Shown one piece after another: positions 3,732-52,218 of a DNA stretch of 64,000 nucleotides (position 1 is its first letter; every line of letters starts with the position of its first letter). This DNA is from Streptomyces sp. Tue6028 (GTDB lineage: Bacteria > Actinomycetota > Actinomycetes > Streptomycetales > Streptomycetaceae). Position numbers and translations under genes: made by a program. Under the pieces are notes generated by a model, which saw only the letters and a program-made list of their open reading frames with translations, did not search any database and was not told the DNA's origin. The stretch is taken from the NCBI RefSeq assembly GCF_002300165.1, contig NZ_MLCE01000009.1:62001-126000 (forward strand). Direction: 5' to 3'.

Positions 3732-4663
3732 TTGTCCCCGCCTCCGAACTTGCTCAGTCGCAGGTAGACGATCGAGCAGAAGAGCAGAATCACGAACGCG
3801 ACCGTGGTCAGGGCCGACGCGTAGCCGAAGTTGTGGGCGTCGACACTGGTGTTCGCGATGTAGAGCGGCAGTGTCGTCGTCTCGCCCGCGGGGCCTCCCC
3901 CGGTCAGCGTGTAGAGCAGGTCGACGTTGTTGAACTCCCACACCGCGCGCAGCAGCGTGGACAGGACGATGGCGTCCTTGAGGTGCGGCAGTGTGATGTG
4001 CAGGAACTGCCGGACCCGGCCCGCGCCGTCGACCTCGGCGGCCTCGTACAGATCCTTGGAGACGGACTGGAGGTCGGCGAGGATGAGGATCGCGAAGAAC
4101 GGCACGCCGCGCCACAGATCGGCGACCACCGCGGCCGGGAAGACGGTGGAGGTGTCGGAGAGCCAGCTGGTGCCGTACTGTCCGATGCCCGCGTCGGCGA
4201 GGTAACGGGTGATGCCCGTCTGGGAGTTGTAGAGCAGCACCCAGATCGCGGAGGTCAGCACGCCGGAGACGGCCCACGGTGAGAAGACCAGCGCGCGGCC
4301 GACCGCCCGTCCCACGAAGGTCTGGTTGACGATCAGCGCGAGCGCCAGGCCGAACAGCAGCTGGAGGCCCACCTCGACGACGACCCACTTGGCGCTGAAG
4401 GTCAGCGTGTCCCAGAACTGGGGGTCGTCGGTGAAGGCGTGCACGAAGTTGTCGAAGCCCGCGTAGCCGTTGCGCCAGGGCTTGGTGGGGTTGTAGTTCT
4501 GCAGGCTGTAGTAGAAGACGCTGATGACGGGGTAGGCGATGAAGCCCAGCATCAGCAGCGCCGCCGGGGCGATCAGCAGGTACGGGAGCCTGTGCGGCGT
4601 CGCGGAGGCACGGCGTCGCCGGGCCGGCGCGGGCGGTTTCGCCACGGCTGCGGCTTGGGCCAT
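3728..4663 (-). CDS. Carbohydrate ABC transporter permease (MalF/CUT1 type)
   Basis: The 311-residue partner permease has a basic N-terminal tail, then six membrane segments, with the EAA loop at YEAAEVDGAGRVRQFLHITLPHLKD. GGAG lies just upstream of the ATG. It is the first gene of a transcription unit that runs left through the second permease, the oxidoreductase, DUF6807 and GH43. Two LacI-type operators lie 67-102 bp upstream, so a LacI-family repressor encoded elsewhere probably controls it. No solute-binding protein gene accompanies it, which is unusual for this family. Confidence 0.92.
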   Translation of the reverse strand: MAQAAAVAKPPAPARRRRASATPHRLPYLLIAPAALLMLGFIAYPVISVFYYSLQNYNPTKPWRNGYAGFDNFVHAFTDDPQFWDTLTFSAKWVVVEVGLQLLFGLALALIVNQTFVGRAVGRALVFSPWAVSGVLTSAIWVLLYNSQTGITRYLADAGIGQYGTSWLSDTSTVFPAAVVADLWRGVPFFAILILADLQSVSKDLYEAAEVDGAGRVRQFLHITLPHLKDAIVLSTLLRAVWEFNNVDLLYTLTGGGPAGETTTLPLYIANTSVDAHNFGYASALTTVAFVILLFCSIVYLRLSKFGGGDK

Positions 4664-22550: not shown

Positions 22551-23987
22551 ATGTCCACCCCGTCCGCACCGTCCACCACTGCCGACGCACCCTCCGCGTC
22601 ATCCGGAACCGCCGGGCTCGGCCCCGCTCTGCTCGTCATCGTCACCGCGTATCTGATGGTCGGCGTCGACTCCACCGTCGTCAACGTCGCCCTGCCCGAC
22701 ATCCAGACGGACCTGCGCTTCACCCCGACCGGCCTGTCCTGGGTCCTGAACGCCTACACCCTCACCTTCGGCGGTCTGCTCCTCCTCGGCGGCCGGGTCG
22801 GCGACATCGCGGGACGCCGCCGCACACTCACCACCGGCGTAATCCTCTTCGCCGCCTCCTCCTTGCTCGGCGGACTCGCCACCGAGAGCGGCTGGCTGCT
22901 CGCCGCCCGCGCGCTCCAGGGCGTCGGCGCCGCCCTCATCGCTCCGAGCACCCTCGCCCTGATCACCACGAACTTCCCGGACGGCCCCCGCCGCCACCAC
23001 GCCCTCGGCGTCTACTCCTCCATGGCGGGCATCGGCGCCTCGGTCGGGCTGGTCCTCGGCGGCATGCTCACCTCCTGGGCGTCCTGGCGCTGGGCCCTGC
23101 TCATCAATGTGCCCATCGGCCTCGCGGTGGCCCTCGCCCTCCCCCGCTTCGCGGCCGAGACCCCGCGCCACGCGGGCCGGTTCGACGCGGCGGGAGCGCT
23201 CACCGGCACGGCCGGGACGACCTCCCTCGTCTACGCGTTCATCCGGGTGTCGGACCAGGGCTGGAGCGACGCGCAGGCACAGCTCGGCTTCGGCGCCGCG
23301 GCGGCCCTGCTCGCGGGCTTCGCCCTGATCGAGAGGCGCGCGCAGCAGCCCATCATGCCGCTGCGCCTGTTCGCCGACCGCGACCGGGCGGGCGGCTACG
23401 CGGGCGTCCTGCTGCTGCCCGCGGGCATGTTCGGCGCGTTCTACTTCCTCACCCTGTTCAGCCAGCGGGTGCTGGAGTACAGCCCGCTGCGCGCGGGCTT
23501 CGCCTTCCTGCCCATGACGCTGGCGATGTTCACGACCGTGCGGTGCGTGCCGCGGCTGCTCCAGCGCCTCGGCGCCAAGCCGGTGCTGCTCACCGGTATG
23601 GCCCTGCTCGTCGCCGCGGGAGCCTGGCTGTGGCGGCTGGCACCGGGCGACGGCTATCTGGCGGGACTGCTCGGCCCGCTGCTGCTGCTCGGCGTGGGCG
23701 TCGGTCTGAGCTTCATGCCCCTGAACGCGACCATCCTCGCGCGCGTCGAGCCCCGCGAGGCGGGTGCCGCCTCCGGCCTGCTCCAGACCCTTCAATGGCT
23801 CGGCGGCACCCTCGGGCTCTCCGTCCTGGTCACGGTGTTCGGCACGACGACCCGGCACACGACCGGCTCCCCGGCCGAGATCCTCACCGCGGGCGCGGCC
23901 CGCGCGTTCGGCATCGGCTCGCTGATCGCGCTGGCCGCGCTGCTGGTGTCGGCGATCGTGATCAAGGGGCGGCGGCGCGCCGTCTAG
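22551..23987 (+). CDS. MFS drug exporter, DHA2 (14-segment) family
   Basis: The 478-residue protein shows the DHA2 signature in segment 1 ([15 protein letters not shown]), motif A ([14 protein letters not shown]) and [18 protein letters not shown], with about fourteen membrane segments. Proteins of this family extrude drugs or secondary metabolites by proton antiport. The divergent TetR gene and its operators suggest inducer-dependent expression. The stop overlaps that of the convergent acdS gene. Confidence 0.9.
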
Positions 23988-25000
23988 AAGAGGGCGCTGT
24001 ACGCGTTCAGGGCGGGCTGCCCGCCGAGGTGGGCGTAGAGCACGGTGGAGTCCCGGTCCAGCTCGCCGCGCGCTACGAGGTCGATCATCCCGGCCATCGA
24101 CTTCCCCTCGTAGACGGGGTCGGTGACCATGCCCTCGGTCCGCGCGGCGAGCCGCATCGCCTCCAGCGTCGTCTCGTCGGGGATCCCGTACGTGCCCGCG
24201 TGGTAGCGCTCGTCGAGCTCGACGTCCGCCTCGGTGAGTTCCCTCCGTACGCCGATGAGCCGGGCGGTGTCGCGCGCGATCCTCTCGATCTGTCCCCGGG
24301 TGCGGGCGGGCTCTGCCGACGCGTCGATCCCGAGGACGCGCCGCGGCCTTCCGCCCGACTCCTCCAGGGCGGCGAACCCGGCGATCATGCCCGCCTGGGT
24401 CGACCCGGTCACCGAGCACACCACCACGGTGTCGAAGAAGGTCCCCAGTTCCCGCTCCTGCTCCGCGACCTCGTACGCCCAGTTCGCGAAGCCGAGCCCG
24501 CCGAGCCGGTGGTCCGAGGCGCCGGCGGGGATGGCGTAGGGCTTGCCACCCGACTCCTCGACCTCGCGCAGTGCCTGCTCCCAGCTCTCCTTGAAGCCGA
24601 TCCCGAACCCGGCCCGCACGAGCCGCACGTCGGCCCCGGCGAGCCGGCTGATCAGGATGTTGCCGACCTTGTCGTACACGGAGTCCGGCCACTCCACCCA
24701 ACTCTCCTGGACCAGCACGCACTTGAGTCCGGCGCGAGCGGCGCAGGCGGCGACCTGGCGGGTGTGGTTGGACTGCACTCCGCCGATCGAGACGAGCGTG
24801 TCGCAGCCCTCGGCCAGCGCGTCGGCGACGAGGTACTCCAGCTTGCGGGTCTTGTTCCCGCCGTACGCGACACCGGAGTTGCAGTCCTCCCGCTTGGCCC
24901 ACAGCTCGGCCCCGCCGAGATGTCCGGTCAGCCGCTCCAGCCGGTGCACCGGGGAGGGGCCGAAGAGCAGCGGATAACGGGCGTACGAGGAAAGGGACAT
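23984..25000 (-). CDS. acdS: 1-aminocyclopropane-1-carboxylate deaminase
   Basis: The 338-residue PLP enzyme has exactly the usual AcdS length. The N-terminus ([21 protein letters not shown]), the PLP lysine motif [11 protein letters not shown] (lysine near 51), [35 protein letters not shown] and [14 protein letters not shown] all match true ACC deaminases rather than D-cysteine desulfhydrases. It splits ACC to alpha-ketobutyrate and ammonia, lowering plant ethylene, which points to a root-associated life. A GntR regulator gene lies 13 bp upstream on the same strand. Confidence 0.9.
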
Positions 25001-25013
25001 GGGACCTCCCGGA

Positions 25014-25667
25014 TCAGTCGGTGTCTTCGTCGGCGAGCTCCTCCAGGCCCCGCCAGATCTCCGCCGTCACACGGACCGCTTCCTCCGCGTCGCCTTCCGC
25101 GCAGGCGTCGATCAGCCGCTCGTGCAGTCCCGCCGAGCGGCAGCTGCCGCCCTCGCCGAAGCGCCGGCGCTCCAGACGGCGGATGAGCGGGGTGTAGCGG
25201 GTGACGGTGGCGGCCGCGGCACGGTTGCCGCTCATCCGGACGAGGACGTCGTGCAGTGCGTCGTCGGCGCCCAGGGCCGCGTCCACGTCACCCGCGCGCA
25301 CGGCGGCGGCGAACCGGTCGTTGGCCGCGCGCATGGCGTCCACGTCGGCGTCCCGCAGCCGGGGCACGGCGACCCGGGTCACCAGCTCGTGCATGGCGCC
25401 GACCACCGCCGCCGCGTCCCGCACGTCGGCGGCCACGACCGGGGTCACCCGTGTGTAGCTCTGCGGCTTGGTCTCCAGCAGGCCTTCGTCGACCAGCCGC
25501 GCGAAGGCCTCACGCACGGGGGCCCGGGACAGCCCGAGCCGCTCGGCGAGTTCGGCGTCGCGGACGACCGCGCCCGGCTCGATCTCCCCGGCCACGATGG
25601 CGTCGCGGATCGCTTCGTAGGCGCGGTCCCTGAGCAGGGTCCGCCGCACGGGTCGCAGGGCCTCCAT
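25014..25667 (-). CDS. GntR family regulator (FadR subfamily) upstream of acdS
   Basis: The 217-residue protein has a winged helix ([26 protein letters not shown], within residues 40-66) and a C-terminal FCD domain with [12 protein letters not shown] and the [12 protein letters not shown] histidine helix. It is the first gene of an operon with acdS and is probably its repressor, responding to an amino acid or ACC. A palindromic candidate operator lies just before the start. Confidence 0.9.
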
Positions 25668-25770: not shown

Positions 25771-27354
25771 TCACACCGCCCACGGCCAGTCGGCGTCCCG
25801 GGTGCTCTCCAGCAGCGGCACCATCCGGAAGGCCGCGTCCGACAGGCCTCCGAAGGTGTGCCGGCCGGGGCGCCCGGAGGGGCCGTGACCCGGCCGGTAT
25901 CCGGCGAGGTTCCAGGTGTAGACCGGCACGTCCGCGGGGACCTGCTCGGTCGGGTCGCCACAGTGGCTGTACGCGGCCTGCTCGTCGGTGACGATCAGGA
26001 CCCGGTCGTGCTTCTTGTAGTGCTTGCGCACCGCCTCGCTCGTCTCGGTGCCGCCGAGGCTGCCGAAACGCTCCAGCACCTTGAGCACCGAGTCGCCCCT
26101 GCGGTACTTCACCCGGCTGCTCGTGGAGCCGAACTCGACCAGGTCCGCGTCGGCCGCCCGCAGCGCGAGCGCCGTGCCGAAGATCGCCGCCGCGTCGGCC
26201 CGGTTGAGCCGCGAGCGGTCGGACATCTGCGAGAAGAACATCGACCCCGAGCGGTCCACGAGCACCAGCGTCCGGCCCGGCAGCGCGGGCACGTTGGCCA
26301 GCGAGTGACCGAGCGCCCGCTCCAGCGGGTACGACCAGCGCAGCGAGGGCGCGTGCCGGTACGCGGCGAGGTAGCGGAACGGGAACTGCCGCGAACGCGC
26401 CACCTCCGCCGGGTCGCTGATCCGCGCGGCGACCTGCTCGGCCACCTCGTCGGACACTCCGGCCTCGTCGAAGTTGCGCAGGTTGCGCACCAGCGCCATC
26501 ACACCCATGGACGGGATCACGGCCTCCCAGGCCGCCTTGTCCATCGGCCCCTGGAGCCAGCCGGCCAGCGCCTCCCACGTGATGCCGGCGGCCGCGAGCC
26601 GCCCGGCGCCGTCGGGCGCCGTCACGACGGCACGCCGCTCGGCGGCGGGCAGCGCCATCAGCTCGCGGTGCGCGGTCAGCACACGGTCCGACGCGGGCGG
26701 CACCGCCGTGTCCGGGTTGTGCCGCCGGTCCAGCGCGTAGCGGAACAGCTCGCCCTGCCACGGCTTGTCCGGGTCCGGCGCCGCGTGCACCAGGTTGAGG
26801 ATGTCGCCGAAGCGGTAGCCCTTGGACGCCGTGTCGTACTTCAGCAGCGACTTGCCGCTGTAGAGACGGCGTACGGCGTCGGCGACACCGCGCTTCACGG
26901 GCTTCGGCACGTTGCGGCCGTAGGTGGCGGTCCAGTAGGCGAGCAGCTCGCCCGGCTCGTCCGGCCGGCGCAGCACGGAGGCCACGACCTGGCGGTTCGA
27001 GGGGCCGTCGATGGCGCCCGCGTCCAGCCGTGCCTTCACGTACTCGGCGGCGCCCACGATCGAGGCGGTCCGCAGGTTGCCCTCGCCGCGCAGCCAGCCG
27101 AGCAGACCGGCGGTCCACGCCGGGTCGGCGACCGCGAGGTCGCGGACGAGCGCGGCGAAGCGGTCGTCACGGTCGGCGCCGGTCTCGTAGAAGGTCTGCT
27201 GGGACACGAAGTTGGCGACGGAGAGCAAAAAGAGCTCGGAGCGCGCGTCACGCTCCTGGCCCCGCCCGCCCTCGTACGTGCGGAGCACGCGTCCTGTGGA
27301 CGTCACGCGGGAGGTGGGCCGCGCTCGGGCCGCCTTGGTGTTGAATCGCGCCAT
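25771..27354 (-). CDS. rsr: Ro60 orthologue Rsr (TROVE domain and vWA domain RNA-binding protein)
   Basis: The 527-residue protein has an N-terminal TROVE HEAT-repeat ring (about residues 15-345), which in Ro60 binds misfolded RNAs in its hole and Y RNA on its outside, and a C-terminal von Willebrand A domain. The metal-dependent adhesion site is intact: D367, S369 and S371 in VLVDRSGSM, a threonine in SLGGTETS and an aspartate in VTDEQA. In Deinococcus, Rsr works with Y RNA and PNPase in structured RNA decay and rRNA maturation under stress. Three Y-RNA-like genes lie directly upstream on the same strand. GGGGGAA lies ten bases before the ATG. RtcB/RtcA genes are not adjacent. Confidence 0.93.
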   Translation of the reverse strand: MARFNTKAARARPTSRVTSTGRVLRTYEGGRGQERDARSELFLLSVANFVSQQTFYETGADRDDRFAALVRDLAVADPAWTAGLLGWLRGEGNLRTASIVGAAEYVKARLDAGAIDGPSNRQVVASVLRRPDEPGELLAYWTATYGRNVPKPVKRGVADAVRRLYSGKSLLKYDTASKGYRFGDILNLVHAAPDPDKPWQGELFRYALDRRHNPDTAVPPASDRVLTAHRELMALPAAERRAVVTAPDGAGRLAAAGITWEALAGWLQGPMDKAAWEAVIPSMGVMALVRNLRNFDEAGVSDEVAEQVAARISDPAEVARSRQFPFRYLAAYRHAPSLRWSYPLERALGHSLANVPALPGRTLVLVDRSGSMFFSQMSDRSRLNRADAAAIFGTALALRAADADLVEFGSTSSRVKYRRGDSVLKVLERFGSLGGTETSEAVRKHYKKHDRVLIVTDEQAAYSHCGDPTEQVPADVPVYTWNLAGYRPGHGPSGRPGRHTFGGLSDAAFRMVPLLESTRDADWPWAV

Positions 27355-27419: not shown

Positions 27420-27565
27420 GGTGTCCGAGGTCGGGAATCGGCGACGGTACACACCGAACGCGTCTGCCATTTCCGCCACATCGACCCTGAGTCGATGACG
27501 GGATTCGAACCCGCACCCTTGGAGATTCGGTCCCAGAAGTATCCGTCGCCTGCGCACCGGGCACC
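27420..27565 (-). ncRNA. Y-RNA-like RNA 3 with tRNA-like (YrlA-type) module
   Basis: About 146 nt. The outer ends pair (27558-27565 with 27420-27427, one mismatch), followed by the shared motif GGUGCG-N2-GGC-N6-UACUUC starting at 27558 and an 8-bp inner helix (27543-27550 with 27440-27447). The distal part is a tRNA-like module in permuted order: T arm 27498-27514 (loop UUCGAAU), then a closed acceptor-like hairpin (27491-27496 with 27480-27485, 5-base loop), then a D arm at 27460-27477. The D arm has the GGCGGAAAUGGCAGACGC form of leucine tRNAs. There is no anticodon and no CCA end, matching the bacterial YrlA class known to accompany Ro60. End points are inferred from pairing. Confidence 0.87.
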
Positions 27566-27576
27566 CACCTTGTGCT

Positions 27577-27657
27577 GCGCCTCCCGAGATCAAGTCGGCG
27601 GCGGCTCTGGATTCTTTTGAGAGAAGAAGTAGCCGCAGCCCGCGCACCGGGAGGTGC
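27577..27657 (-). ncRNA. Y-RNA-like RNA 2, short form without tRNA module
   Basis: About 81 nt. Its ends pair over ten positions with one mismatch (27648-27657 with 27577-27586). The same GGUGCG-N2-GGC-N6-UACUUC motif begins at 27648 with identical spacing, and the inner helix GCGGCU/AGCCGC (27631-27636 with 27601-27606) is capped by a small UUCUU/AAGAA hairpin and a pyrimidine-rich loop. The 3' strand GACUUGAUCU resembles the conserved 3' strand of animal Y RNAs. The tRNA-like module of its neighbours is missing, so it may bind Rsr without the same partner. Confidence 0.8.
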
Positions 27658-27670
27658 ATGAAGTTGTGGT

Positions 27671-27807
27671 GTCCAGAGATCGAGGTCGGCGGAACCGACA
27701 AGGTGCTCTAACCCCTGAGCTACACCGGCGCGTTGTACCGGTGGCGGGACTCGAACCCGCGGCCGCCCCATTATGAGTGGAAGTAGGTCCTGCCTTCGCA
27801 CCTGGAC
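27671..27807 (-). ncRNA. Y-RNA-like RNA 1 with tRNA-like (YrlA-type) module
   Basis: About 137 nt. Ends pair as GUCCAG/CUGGAC (27802-27807 with 27671-27676). The shared motif GGUGCG-N2-GGC-N6-UACUUC starts at 27802, and an inner helix GGC-AGGACC pairs with GGUUCC-GCC apart from one mismatch. The distal module has a T arm at 27744-27760 (loop UUCGAGU), a closed acceptor-like hairpin CACCGG/CCGGUG (27738-27743 with 27723-27728, 9-base loop) and a D arm at 27704-27722 with the UAGCUCAGGGGUUAGAGCA form of ordinary tRNAs. No anticodon arm or CCA end exists. A -10-like TAAAGT ends seven bases before the predicted 5' end. Confidence 0.87.
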
Positions 27808-27814
27808 GTGCATC

Positions 27815-27820
27815 ACTTTA
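27815..27820 (-). promoter_or_regulatory. Candidate -10 element of the Y RNA array
   Basis: TAAAGT on the minus strand is followed by seven bases and then by the predicted first base of Y RNA 1 (27807). No good -35 hexamer is seen at 17-18 bp, so an activator or alternative sigma factor is possible. Confidence 0.45.
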
Positions 27821-27876
27821 GGAGGGCGGCCGCGGGCCGGGCGAGCGAATTAATGCGTGCTGTCGACCGAGGGAGT

Positions 27877-29328
27877 TCAGCCGCGCTTCTGGCGCTTCCA
27901 GGGGCCGGTGATGGCGAGCATGATGCCCGGGTCCTGGATGTTGGCGAAGAGGGTGCCGCCGTCGGGCGAGAAGGTGACGCCGGTGAACTCGCTGTACTCG
28001 GGCTCCTCCTCGCTGCCGATGTTCAGCTCGTTACGGGCGATCGGGTACGTACGGCCGCTGTCCGTGGCGCCGAAGAGGTGCTGGATGCCCTCGCCGTCCT
28101 CGGCGATGACGAGGCCGCCGTACGGGGAGACGGTGATGTTGTCGGGGCCGTCGAAGGCGCCGTCGACCGACGGGTCGGGGTTGACGCCGATGAGGACCTT
28201 CAGCGTCAGGGTGCGGCGCTTGGGGTCGTAGAACCACACGGCGCCGTCGTGCTGGACGGGGCTCTCGCTGCGGGCGTACGAGGAGACGATGTAGACGCCG
28301 CCGTCGCCCCACCACATGCCTTCGAGCTTGCGGGCGCGGGTGACCTGGCCGTCGGTGAACTGCTTGCGCACGGAGGTGGTCTTCGCGTCACGGTCGGGCA
28401 CGTCCACCCAGTCCACGCCGTAGACCGTGCCGATCTTCGTGGCGCGGGAGAGGTCGTCGACGAACTTGCCGCCGGAGTCGAAGCACTTGAAGGCCTGGAG
28501 CGAGCCGGCGTCGTCGGCGAGGGTGGCGAGCTGCCCGTGGCCGTGCTCGAAGCCCTGCGGCGGGGTCCAGCGGTAGAGGAGGCCGTTCGGGCCAGCGGCG
28601 TCCTCGGTGAGGTAGAGGCGACCGCGCTTGGGGTCGACGACGACGGCCTCGTGGGCGTAGCGGCCCAGTGCCTTGATCGGCTTGGGGCCGCGGTTGCGGC
28701 GGTGGTCCACGGGGTCGACCTCGAAGACGTACCCGTGGTCCTTGGTCATGCCGTTCTGGCCGGCCTTGTCCTCGGTCTCCTCGCAGGTGAGCCAGGTGCC
28801 CCAAGGGGTGTTTCCACCGGCGCAGTTGGTGGAGGTGCCCGCGATGCCGACCCACTCGGCGACCTTGTCGTGCCGCACCTCGACGACCGTGCAGCCGCCG
28901 GACGCCGCCGGGTCGTAGACCAGGCCCTCGGTGAGCGGAACGGGGTGCGGCCAGTCGGCGCGGGGGCCCTTGAGCTCGTGGTTGTTGACCAGGAGGGTGG
29001 CGCCGCGCGGACCGCGGAAGGTGGACGTGCCGTCGTGGTTGGAGGGCGTGAACTCGCCGGACTCCAGCTTGGTCCTGCCGCTGTAGGTGATCACGCGGTA
29101 GGAGAACCCGGCGGGCAGGGCGAGCAGGCCGTCGGGGTCGGGGAGCAGCGGACCGTAGCCGACGCCGCCGTGCTTCGCCCCCGAAGCCTCGCCCGCGCCG
29201 TCGGTGTCCGTCTCCGTGGAGGCGAGGGCGTTCGGAGCGGTGGCCAGCGCGCCTACGCTGCCGGCCAGGGCGACTCCGGCACCCGTGATCGCGGATCGTC
29301 TGGCGAAGTCCCTGCGGGTGAGCGACAT
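27877..29328 (-). CDS. phoX: PhoX family alkaline phosphatase, Tat-exported
   Basis: The 483-residue protein starts with a twin-arginine signal (RRDFARRSAITGAGVALAGS) and an alanine-rich cleavage region (PNALAS), so it is exported folded. The DUF839/PhoX body includes the metal-ligand-rich stretches VNNHELKG, TCEETEDKAG, GRYAHEAVVVDP and DGPDNITVSPYGGLVIAEDG. PhoX enzymes are calcium- and iron-dependent phosphomonoesterases for phosphate scavenging. AGGAGA precedes the ATG at 29328. An 11-bp direct-repeat PHO box lies upstream, so PhoRP control is likely. Confidence 0.9.
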   Translation of the reverse strand: MSLTRRDFARRSAITGAGVALAGSVGALATAPNALASTETDTDGAGEASGAKHGGVGYGPLLPDPDGLLALPAGFSYRVITYSGRTKLESGEFTPSNHDGTSTFRGPRGATLLVNNHELKGPRADWPHPVPLTEGLVYDPAASGGCTVVEVRHDKVAEWVGIAGTSTNCAGGNTPWGTWLTCEETEDKAGQNGMTKDHGYVFEVDPVDHRRNRGPKPIKALGRYAHEAVVVDPKRGRLYLTEDAAGPNGLLYRWTPPQGFEHGHGQLATLADDAGSLQAFKCFDSGGKFVDDLSRATKIGTVYGVDWVDVPDRDAKTTSVRKQFTDGQVTRARKLEGMWWGDGGVYIVSSYARSESPVQHDGAVWFYDPKRRTLTLKVLIGVNPDPSVDGAFDGPDNITVSPYGGLVIAEDGEGIQHLFGATDSGRTYPIARNELNIGSEEEPEYSEFTGVTFSPDGGTLFANIQDPGIMLAITGPWKRQKRG

Positions 29329-29406
29329 GTGGTGTCTCCTGTGACGGTGGAGGGGGACTGTCGTGGGGGGCGGTGGCGACCTCGGTTGCGGCCACACGCT
29401 CCCGCC

Positions 29407-51381: not shown

Positions 51382-52218
51382 ATGCCCACACCCCCTCCGA
51401 CCGGCCCACTCGTCACTCGGGACACCCTCGCCGCGGACCTTCGCACGCTCGGGGTACGGCCCGCGGAGACACTTCTCGTGCACTCCTCGCTCAGCGCCCT
51501 CGGCTGGGTGAACGGAGGCCCAATCGCCGCCGTCCAGGCCCTGCTCGACACGCTCGGCCCCGACGGCACCCTGGTGGTCCCCACGCAGTCCGGTGACCTG
51601 TCCGACCCGGCGCTGTGGGGCAATCCGCCCGTGCCCGAGCAGTGGTGGGCGACCATCCGCGCCACCATGCCCGTGTACGACCCGCGGGTGACCCCCAGCC
51701 GGGGTGTCGGTGTGATCCCTGAGACCGTGCGCAACTGGCCGGGCGCCCTGCGCAGCGCGCACCCGGAGACCTCGTTCGCGGCGCTCGGTCCACGCGCCGC
51801 GGCGATCCTCGACGGCCACGCGCCCGACTGCCGGCTCGGCGAGCGGAGCCCGCTGGCCCGCCTGGAGGCCGACGGTGCCCGCGTCCTGCTGCTGGGGGCC
51901 GGCTACGACACCTGCACCAGCTTCCATCTGGCCGAGTACCGCATCGCGTCGCCCGTCGTCGACGTGGGGCGGCCGTCCCCGCAGGGCTGGCGGACCGTCC
52001 GTGAGGTGTCGATCACCTCGGACGGGTTCGACGCGCTCGGCTCCGACTACGAACGGGACCGCCCCGTCGTCCGGGGCACCGTGGGCGCCGCCGACGCCCG
52101 GCTCTTCCCGGTCGCCGACGCCGTGGCGTACGCGGAGCGCTGGCTGACACTGCACCGCCCACGCGAGCTCGCGGTCGATACGGCCCCCGGCGCCCCGGCA
52201 CCCCGACGACGTCCTTAG
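51382..52218 (+). CDS. Aminoglycoside 3-N-acetyltransferase family protein
   Basis: The 278-residue protein matches the AAC(3)/YokD acetyl-CoA-dependent family: LLVHSSLSALGWVNGG near the N-terminus, GTLVVPTQS, RSAHPETSFAALG and GAGYDTCTSFHLAEY. Family members acetylate aminoglycosides or other amines. In Streptomyces such chromosomal genes are common outside producers, so the substrate is open. Two palindromes upstream suggest regulation, possibly by a metal or redox sensor. Confidence 0.88.
   Translation: MPTPPPTGPLVTRDTLAADLRTLGVRPAETLLVHSSLSALGWVNGGPIAAVQALLDTLGPDGTLVVPTQSGDLSDPALWGNPPVPEQWWATIRATMPVYDPRVTPSRGVGVIPETVRNWPGALRSAHPETSFAALGPRAAAILDGHAPDCRLGERSPLARLEADGARVLLLGAGYDTCTSFHLAEYRIASPVVDVGRPSPQGWRTVREVSITSDGFDALGSDYERDRPVVRGTVGAADARLFPVADAVAYAERWLTLHRPRELAVDTAPGAPAPRRRP

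Follow-up and report, generated by a model that had tools for sequence, protein, structure and literature searches.

Why bacterial Y RNAs mimic tRNAs is a standing question. In 2014 Chen et al. reportedly listed more than 250 species with likely Y RNAs near Ro60, every species having at least one with a tRNA-like domain; Streptomyces may already be on that list, and the general kind, the bacterial Y RNA or YrlA, is already known. YrlA is modular, with a basal stem that binds Rsr and a D/T/acceptor tRNA-like domain; it tethers PNPase and is modified by DusA and TruB (PMC8394870). Salmonella has a yrlBA pair within an rsr-yrlBA-rtcBA operon (PMC7790460). Y RNAs elsewhere drop when Ro60 is lost, and bacterial Y RNAs are described as lacking homology to the vertebrate clades (PMC4726728). 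Here we analyse a 64 kb stretch of DNA from Streptomyces sp. Tue6028 (the window), in which three Y-like RNAs, units 1 to 3, lie upstream of rsr, the gene for a Ro60 orthologue; units and gene are all on the minus strand. From the sequences, covariation, conservation, linkage, module exchange and promoter position computed here, we think it likely that this stretch encodes three Y-type noncoding RNAs made from one promoter, with a common handle and differing far ends, whose tRNA modules would recruit partners.

The array resembles Salmonella YrlA (RF02553; PDB 6CU1) in its paired ends, in a T arm, closed acceptor and D arm that follow in the same permuted order, and in its place beside rsr; the T- and D-loop sequences of its units would also suit modification by DusA and TruB as in YrlA. 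It differs in a handle motif specific to these actinobacteria, in the extra anticodon arm of unit 1, in the class II variable arm that unit 3 may carry, in the mimicry of several tRNA families, and in being a tandem array. In partial coverage of the literature we found no description of an anticodon arm in a Y RNA, of a second permutation point or of class II variable arms, nor of several tRNA families in one array or of rapid module exchange. As in Salmonella yrlB-yrlA, more than one Y RNA stands beside rsr and one has a tRNA-like domain, but here three RNAs form one array and no RtcBA was seen next to the window locus. The Deinococcus radiodurans Y RNA (the RYPER scaffold, Rsr-PNPase) is likewise encoded with an Rsr of the same fold (2nvo) and its stem is taken as the Rsr site, whereas the window array has three RNAs of different build. 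Vertebrate Y RNAs share the general plan of paired ends and a conserved internal loop for Ro60, and there is what we take to be a short match to the human Y RNAs, GGU-N-CG on the 5' strand and UUGA on the 3' strand. An earlier note on this DNA, made from the sequence alone, had likened the 3' strands to those of animal Y RNAs; that likeness is weak, and no vertebrate Y RNA family was listed in an Rfam scan of the locus up to E = 10.

Three units with a common handle upstream of rsr

Scanning both strands of the 64 kb for GGTGCG-N2-GGC-N6-TACTTC gave exactly three copies, all on the minus strand (27802, 27648 and 27558), and in every copy TACTTC is 17 bases from the first G; 100 dinucleotide shuffles gave none. 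The array has exact outer bounds of 27420-27807 and occupies the gap between a PhoX-like gene (27877-29331, minus) and the rsr start at 27354. Each unit has pairing ends: GUCCAG with CUGGAC in unit 1 (27807-27802 with 27676-27671), CCUCCCG with CGGGAGG in unit 2 (27654-27648 with 27586-27580), and GUGCCCG with CGGACAC in unit 3 (27565-27558 with 27427-27420), where the stem contains one C.A mismatch in the Tue6028 strain and C-G in most relatives. In the three unit alignments 97-100% of cells in the outer helices are paired, an inner helix of the form GGC.../...GCC is found in all three units, and the part of the 3' strand common to all of them is GA-N-CUC. The earlier note's positions and equal spacing of three motif units on the rsr strand are thus borne out, the pairing ends and inner helix it proposed are present in each unit, and the 3' strands it quoted were located in the units as stated.

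The rsr gene (25771..27354, minus) encodes a 527-residue protein with a TROVE domain (Pfam, 6.6e-14). Its AlphaFold model (mean predicted local distance difference test score 85.5) is matched by Foldseek to animal Ro60 with RNA (1yvp, E 4.7e-15), to D. radiodurans Rsr (2nvo, E 5.7e-14) and additionally to phage Ro60 (9l5y). Against the NCBIfam Rsr equivalog NF041674 the protein scores 20.7 bits, below the cut-off of 900. Going by its modelled fold and its context, the window Rsr is a Ro60 orthologue, as already proposed for this neighbour, and one that lies outside NCBI's Rsr equivalog.

tRNA-like modules of units 1 and 3

Unit 1 (27671..27807, minus), delimited by motif, covariation and de-permutation, holds in order an anticodon arm, a variable loop of 5 nucleotides (nt), a T arm, a closed acceptor stem and a D arm. 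The anticodon-like arm UUCCA-CUCAUAA-UGGGG (27766..27782, minus), with a 5-bp stem that is re-paired in related loci and a 7-nt loop with the "anticodon" CAU, begins immediately past the inner helix, with the UUC of the conserved UACUUC as its first bases. The T arm (27744..27760, minus) shows covariation, keeps a TTCRANT T-loop in 66/66 copies and lies within a sub-threshold Rfam YrlA match; the acceptor stem (27723..27743, minus) has 7 bp, three of them changed on both sides, and strands bridged by a 7-nt loop; and U8 with the D arm (27705..27722, minus) retains the D-loop GG in all 66 copies. Among 76 distinct copies, pair 4 of the anticodon-like stem occurs as CG, UA or GC and pair 5 as AU, CG, GC or UA, while C32, U33 and A38 of the loop are held in 74-75 and positions 34 and 35 vary; because these copies were preselected for full stem pairing, the independent result is the constancy of the loop, and the pairing was tested without preselection in the 23-copy covariation alignment described below.

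Rewritten in tRNA order, unit 1 is called as a tRNA by ARAGORN in 59/59 species copies (a set without 7 further copies with shorter D loops, which did not match the pattern), against at most three calls in native order and 0/295 for the other circular permutants. The de-permuted identities are Met-CAT in 27, Ile-GAT in 24, and others; the window copy reads as Met-CAT, its anticodon-to-T part being closest to the host tRNA-Met(CAT) (24.5, next 19) and its D arm to tRNA-Arg(CCT). By sequence, then, unit 1 is a tRNA complete in all its parts but circularly permuted. Red algae are reported to have permuted tRNA genes whose products are processed to working tRNAs, and the completeness of de-permuted unit 1 for ARAGORN would suit such genes; but about 70 tRNAs, a normal set, are encoded in this genome, the anticodons change from species to species with a freedom not seen in a needed tRNA, unit 3 is without an anticodon, and both the handle and the link to rsr would be left unexplained, so that working tRNAs seem to us very improbable. 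In native order ARAGORN finds no tRNA at the array locus.

Phage and plasmid searches gave short matches only, mostly to the T-acceptor-D part. In Caulobacter phages this part of unit 1 aligns across the point where one tRNA-Pro gene of a tandem pair meets the next, which hints that tandem tRNA genes could be the origin of such modules. The phage matches also include the mycobacteriophages Whirlwind and Krypton555, with no annotated feature at the matched sites.

Unit 3 (27420..27565, minus) carries as its distal module what covariation and an anticodon-stem test indicate to be a tRNA permuted at the anticodon loop. Its T arm (27498..27514, minus; TTCRANT in 88/89 copies, with covariation) is followed by an acceptor stem of 7 bp with a short closing loop (27479..27497, minus; 5/7 pairs changed on both sides) and by U8 with a D arm of tRNA-Leu type (UGGCGGAAAUGGCAGACGC; 27460..27478, minus), assigned by host-tRNA match. 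The anticodon stem is formed by the 5' strand UUCGGU (27453..27458, minus) and the 3' strand ACCGAA (27526..27531, minus). Because the MAFFT alignment of unit 3 is poor across D-arm classes, we tested this stem alignment-free: the strand after the D arm pairs with the stretch before the variable region in 72/87 copies, against a mean of 33.8 and a maximum of 44 after shuffling. Given a filler anticodon loop, unit 3 is called as a tRNA by ARAGORN in 70/70 copies, a result partly built in by copy selection. The D arm is of class I in 50 copies and of Leu-type class II in 37, and many Leu-type copies have a long variable arm with stems that differ wholly between species (GGGG/CCCC, CCGUA/UACGG, GCUUC/GAAGC). 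The window copy is of Leu type with a short variable region, and its D arm matches host tRNA-Leu(gag) at 18.5 and Leu(cag) at 17, the next isotype being Asn at 9.

Unit 2 (27577..27657, minus), defined by covariation and by a covariance model (R1), is a plain stem-loop, with a 7-bp outer stem, the GGUGCG/GANCUC internal loop, the inner helix and a UUC/GAA hairpin. The earlier note had called a member lacking the tRNA module unusual, but unit 2 is kept in that form in most Streptomyces rsr loci. Its view that one member lacks the tRNA module stands, though it missed that the tRNA parts of units 1 and 3 are whole permuted tRNA bodies, of two layouts. In several loci with a unit 1-unit 3 layout, unit 2 is trimmed to the outer stem and loop, CCUCCCGGUGCG-N5-9-UGANCUCGGGAGG. 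Eight loci (L037, L053, L060, L099, L102, L105, L108, L110) in which unit 2 comprises the outer stem and the Ro-type loop only, about 36 nt, offer natural minimal handles.

Covariation and conservation

We aligned 23 non-redundant copies of unit 1, 41 copies of unit 2 and 39 copies of unit 3 and compared each alignment with 500 shuffles, a control that leaves relatedness among the aligned copies in place. Pairing holds in 99.9%, 97.4% and 95.5% of cells, respectively, with both sides changed in 6 pairs of unit 1, 24 cells of unit 2 and 60 cells of unit 3, and 0/500 shuffles attained either the percentages or the counts; sliding the partner strands drops pairing to 31-60%. The structure of all three units is, at the level of sequence comparison, supported by compensatory changes across Streptomyces, the sign that the earlier note had said to look for. 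Decayed tRNA genes or the scar of a mobile element would account for tRNA-like pieces that give no native tRNA call, yet the compensatory changes and the conservation over the genus and other families rule this out, leaving it a negligible probability. Equally improbable is a coding role, with the array as an extra N-terminal part of Rsr. In the Tue6028 strain the rsr frame remains open as far as 27816 (681 codons), but in most relatives it runs open over a much shorter distance, often only some 6 to 80 codons past the 527-codon protein; length differences between units are not multiples of three, and substitutions respect base pairing.

We examined 110 rsr loci, 30 from whole-genome relatives and 80 from named Streptomyces. 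Most have the motif upstream of rsr. With T1 for unit 1, s for the short unit 2 and T for unit 3, the layouts and their counts are T1-s-T (54), s-T (28), T1-T (11) and a few others, and units are lost and gained individually. Among 199 genomes, the motif occurs in 84/96 Streptomyces genomes with intact rsr and in 5/103 without (p = 4e-36). In the 12 rsr-positive genomes without the motif, the rsr locus always has a variant Y RNA or parts of one, in many cases just one short RNA that contains CCGAUGCG. A motif match in one rsr-negative genome (G022, L177) was checked and found to be chance, another (G020) looks like chance, and the one in G220 is genuine.

R1 was built from Streptomyces unit 2 only. 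It matches 14 of 148 genomes across the class, 13 of which are among the 18 genomes with TROVE (Fisher 8e-14), and outside Streptomyces its matches in TROVE genomes lie immediately upstream of the TROVE gene. In other families as many as four or five units are arrayed together (L239, L240). Because the genomes share ancestry, the linkage p-values overstate the evidence. A three-member Y RNA locus before a Ro60 orthologue, as the earlier note had claimed, is nonetheless upheld by covariation, by a motif that tracks rsr and by a unit 2 model that tracks TROVE.

Beside these, a second rsr clade in Streptomyces (L212, L213, L218, L219, L221, L223-L228) has one short Y-like RNA in which CCGAUGCG replaces CCGGUGCG, and at one locus (L210, genome G149) an intact-looking Y RNA pair adjoins an rsr gene broken into fragments. 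In another actinobacterial family (L239, L240, L241), rsr is preceded by arrays of two to five Y-like RNAs, whose tRNA-like modules are Asn-like, Glu-like and of other types.

Y-like RNAs also occur away from rsr. One or two lie between metK and priA (names read from neighbouring frames, with no family search) in nine rsr-positive Streptomyces genomes (L186, at 3982-4091; L187, L188, L195, L198, L199, L200, L206, L208); several of these copies have a module like a class II D arm, with no clear isotype. The Streptomyces-metK RNA (RF03063), which occurs near the metK-priA locus, was considered for these copies and rejected: it is a distinct RNA, found elsewhere in the same loci. Scattered single Y-like RNAs far from rsr (L175, L176, L178, L179, L180, L196, L197, L201, L203, L204, L207) combine an anticodon-like arm with a Glu-like D arm. 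Nearly all unlinked copies are in rsr-positive genomes, genome G220 (L176) excepted. In the window's own genome the strict motif occurs only at rsr, and matches with two mismatches do not exceed a reversed-pattern control.

Several observations weigh against reading the array as Y RNAs that serve Rsr. The internal-loop strands GGUGCG (5') and GANCUC (3') are invariant or nearly so, which puts their pairing, and any bulge of the invariant C like that in animal Y RNAs, beyond the reach of covariation, so the handle's own pairing draws no evidence from that source. Minimum free energies of units 1 and 3 are no better than those of shuffles (z-scores -0.4 and -0.2), and only unit 2 folds better (-3.5); free energy being uninformative for units 1 and 3, their structure is argued from covariation and comparison. 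Rfam YrlA is the best Rfam match for units 1 and 3, but at 32.9 and 19.1 bits both fall short of the gathering threshold of 69, and the best relative (L032) reaches 48.2. Finally, G220 has no detectable TROVE gene and retains two Y-like RNAs of this kind.

Exchange of tRNA modules

The tRNA family mimicked differs between copies. The best class I case is unit 3 of L032, which matches Arg(ACG) on both halves (22 and 25, next 17), and the last unit of L239 matches Asn; over the whole set of copies no one isotype is consistently the best match, and the lead over the next is often slight, so we name only clear cases. On a tree of rsr (97 rows, a quick method, with branch support from the Shimodaira-Hasegawa-like approximate likelihood ratio test only), the type of unit 3, class I or Leu-like class II, changes at least 16 times. 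The presence of unit 1 changes 17 times and that of unit 2 10 times, counts that are rough because diverged copies (such as unit 1 of L011 and L106) and reduced forms of unit 2 escape the motif search. In one pair of loci (L086/L097) the flanks are mostly 88-100% identical and 40-base bins of the module fall to 57-80%, and a second pair (L108/L110) shows the same confinement of divergence to the module; near-identical flanks around divergent module bins mean that the tRNA body was swapped within a kept handle. From these alignments we conclude that the tRNA body of unit 3 is exchanged inside a nearly unchanged Y stem.

Such turnover might reflect an arms race, in which the tRNA modules are decoys for enzymes that cut or modify tRNAs (anticodon nucleases, for example) and shield tRNAs under stress, with no tethering of a nuclease. 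The idea has been raised for Salmonella YrlA (PMC7790460), and it would fit both the fast exchange of modules of different tRNA families and the full anticodon arm of unit 1, variable between species at positions 34 and 35 and held at 32, 33 and 38. However, unit 3 is without an anticodon loop, no nuclease was linked to the window locus in our analysis, and Salmonella YrlA RNA was not cut by an induced anticodon nuclease, though the decoy idea may still hold there (PMC7790460). We consider decoys unlikely as the explanation of this array.

Promoter and proposed function

The sole promoter-like element of the array is a -10-like TAAAGT (27815..27820, minus) with AATTCGCTCGCCCG at 27838-27851. 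An element of the general form AATTCGCTCG-N~17-CCTCCTANAGT heads the array regardless of which unit is at its front: in 69/70 loci TANAGT is found 12 nt ahead of the unit 1 motif, and in loci that lack unit 1 this element is placed ahead of unit 2. No promoter-like element was seen between the units, which are separated by gaps of about 15 nt, and a single precursor for all three is the simplest reading of this arrangement.

The same arrangement would suit a cis-acting 5' leader of the rsr mRNA, to which Rsr or a tRNA-sensing factor binds to regulate rsr, and in which separate small RNAs do not matter: the single promoter-like element is upstream and the spacers show none, the gene that follows on this strand is rsr, and the array is nearly always directly upstream of it. 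In many genomes, nevertheless, Y-like RNAs built in the same way are found at a distance from rsr, such as those at the metK-priA locus and at the scattered sites, units come and go singly, and the acceptor, D and T modules have no evident role in a leader. A leader and nothing else is therefore doubtful, though a leader role may be additional to that of separate Y RNAs.

We suggest that the promoter before unit 1 drives all three RNAs, on the same strand as rsr, and we infer their transcription, processing from a common precursor, binding to Rsr and recruitment of partners. By analogy with described Y RNAs, the handle, made up of the paired ends, the GGUGCG/GANCUC internal loop and the short inner helix, would dock on the outer face of the Rsr ring. 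Units 1 and 3 would then present permuted tRNA bodies that are closed at the acceptor end and open where the handle enters; the opening of unit 1 lies between the D arm and the anticodon arm, so that the full anticodon arm would be displayed, and that of unit 3 would lie within the anticodon loop. The most likely role of these modules is to bring Rsr together with proteins that bind tRNA, PNPase by analogy or tRNA-handling enzymes, and unit 2 would serve to load or gate Rsr with no tRNA partner involved.

Of the other features of the window, a 1-aminocyclopropane-1-carboxylate deaminase gene (TIGR01274, above cut-off; 23984-25667, minus) lies just downstream of rsr and adjoins a GntR/FCD-type regulator. 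ARAGORN calls a tRNA-Ala(ggc) at 52033-52126 (minus), which the Rfam tRNA model does not list in the contig and which is probably false.

Implications for actinobacterial Ro60 particles

A species can have a more varied set of Rsr-associated RNAs than a single YrlA. In this array nature has held the handle constant and varied the far end, with none in unit 2, a class I or II tRNA in unit 3 and a full tRNA with anticodon arm in unit 1. Since close relatives differ by one module in a near-identical locus (L086/L097; L108/L110), the role of the tRNA part is open to direct comparison. We tentatively raise a broader idea, to which we give only a modest chance: that actinobacterial Ro60 particles carry exchangeable, complete tRNA mimics, anticodon arm included, that each Y RNA aims Rsr and its partner at one tRNA family or at a tRNA-attacking enzyme, and that the set evolves fast through swaps of whole tRNA bodies. 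If this is true, such fast swapping would make the Y RNAs interchangeable guides or decoys and not one fixed scaffold.
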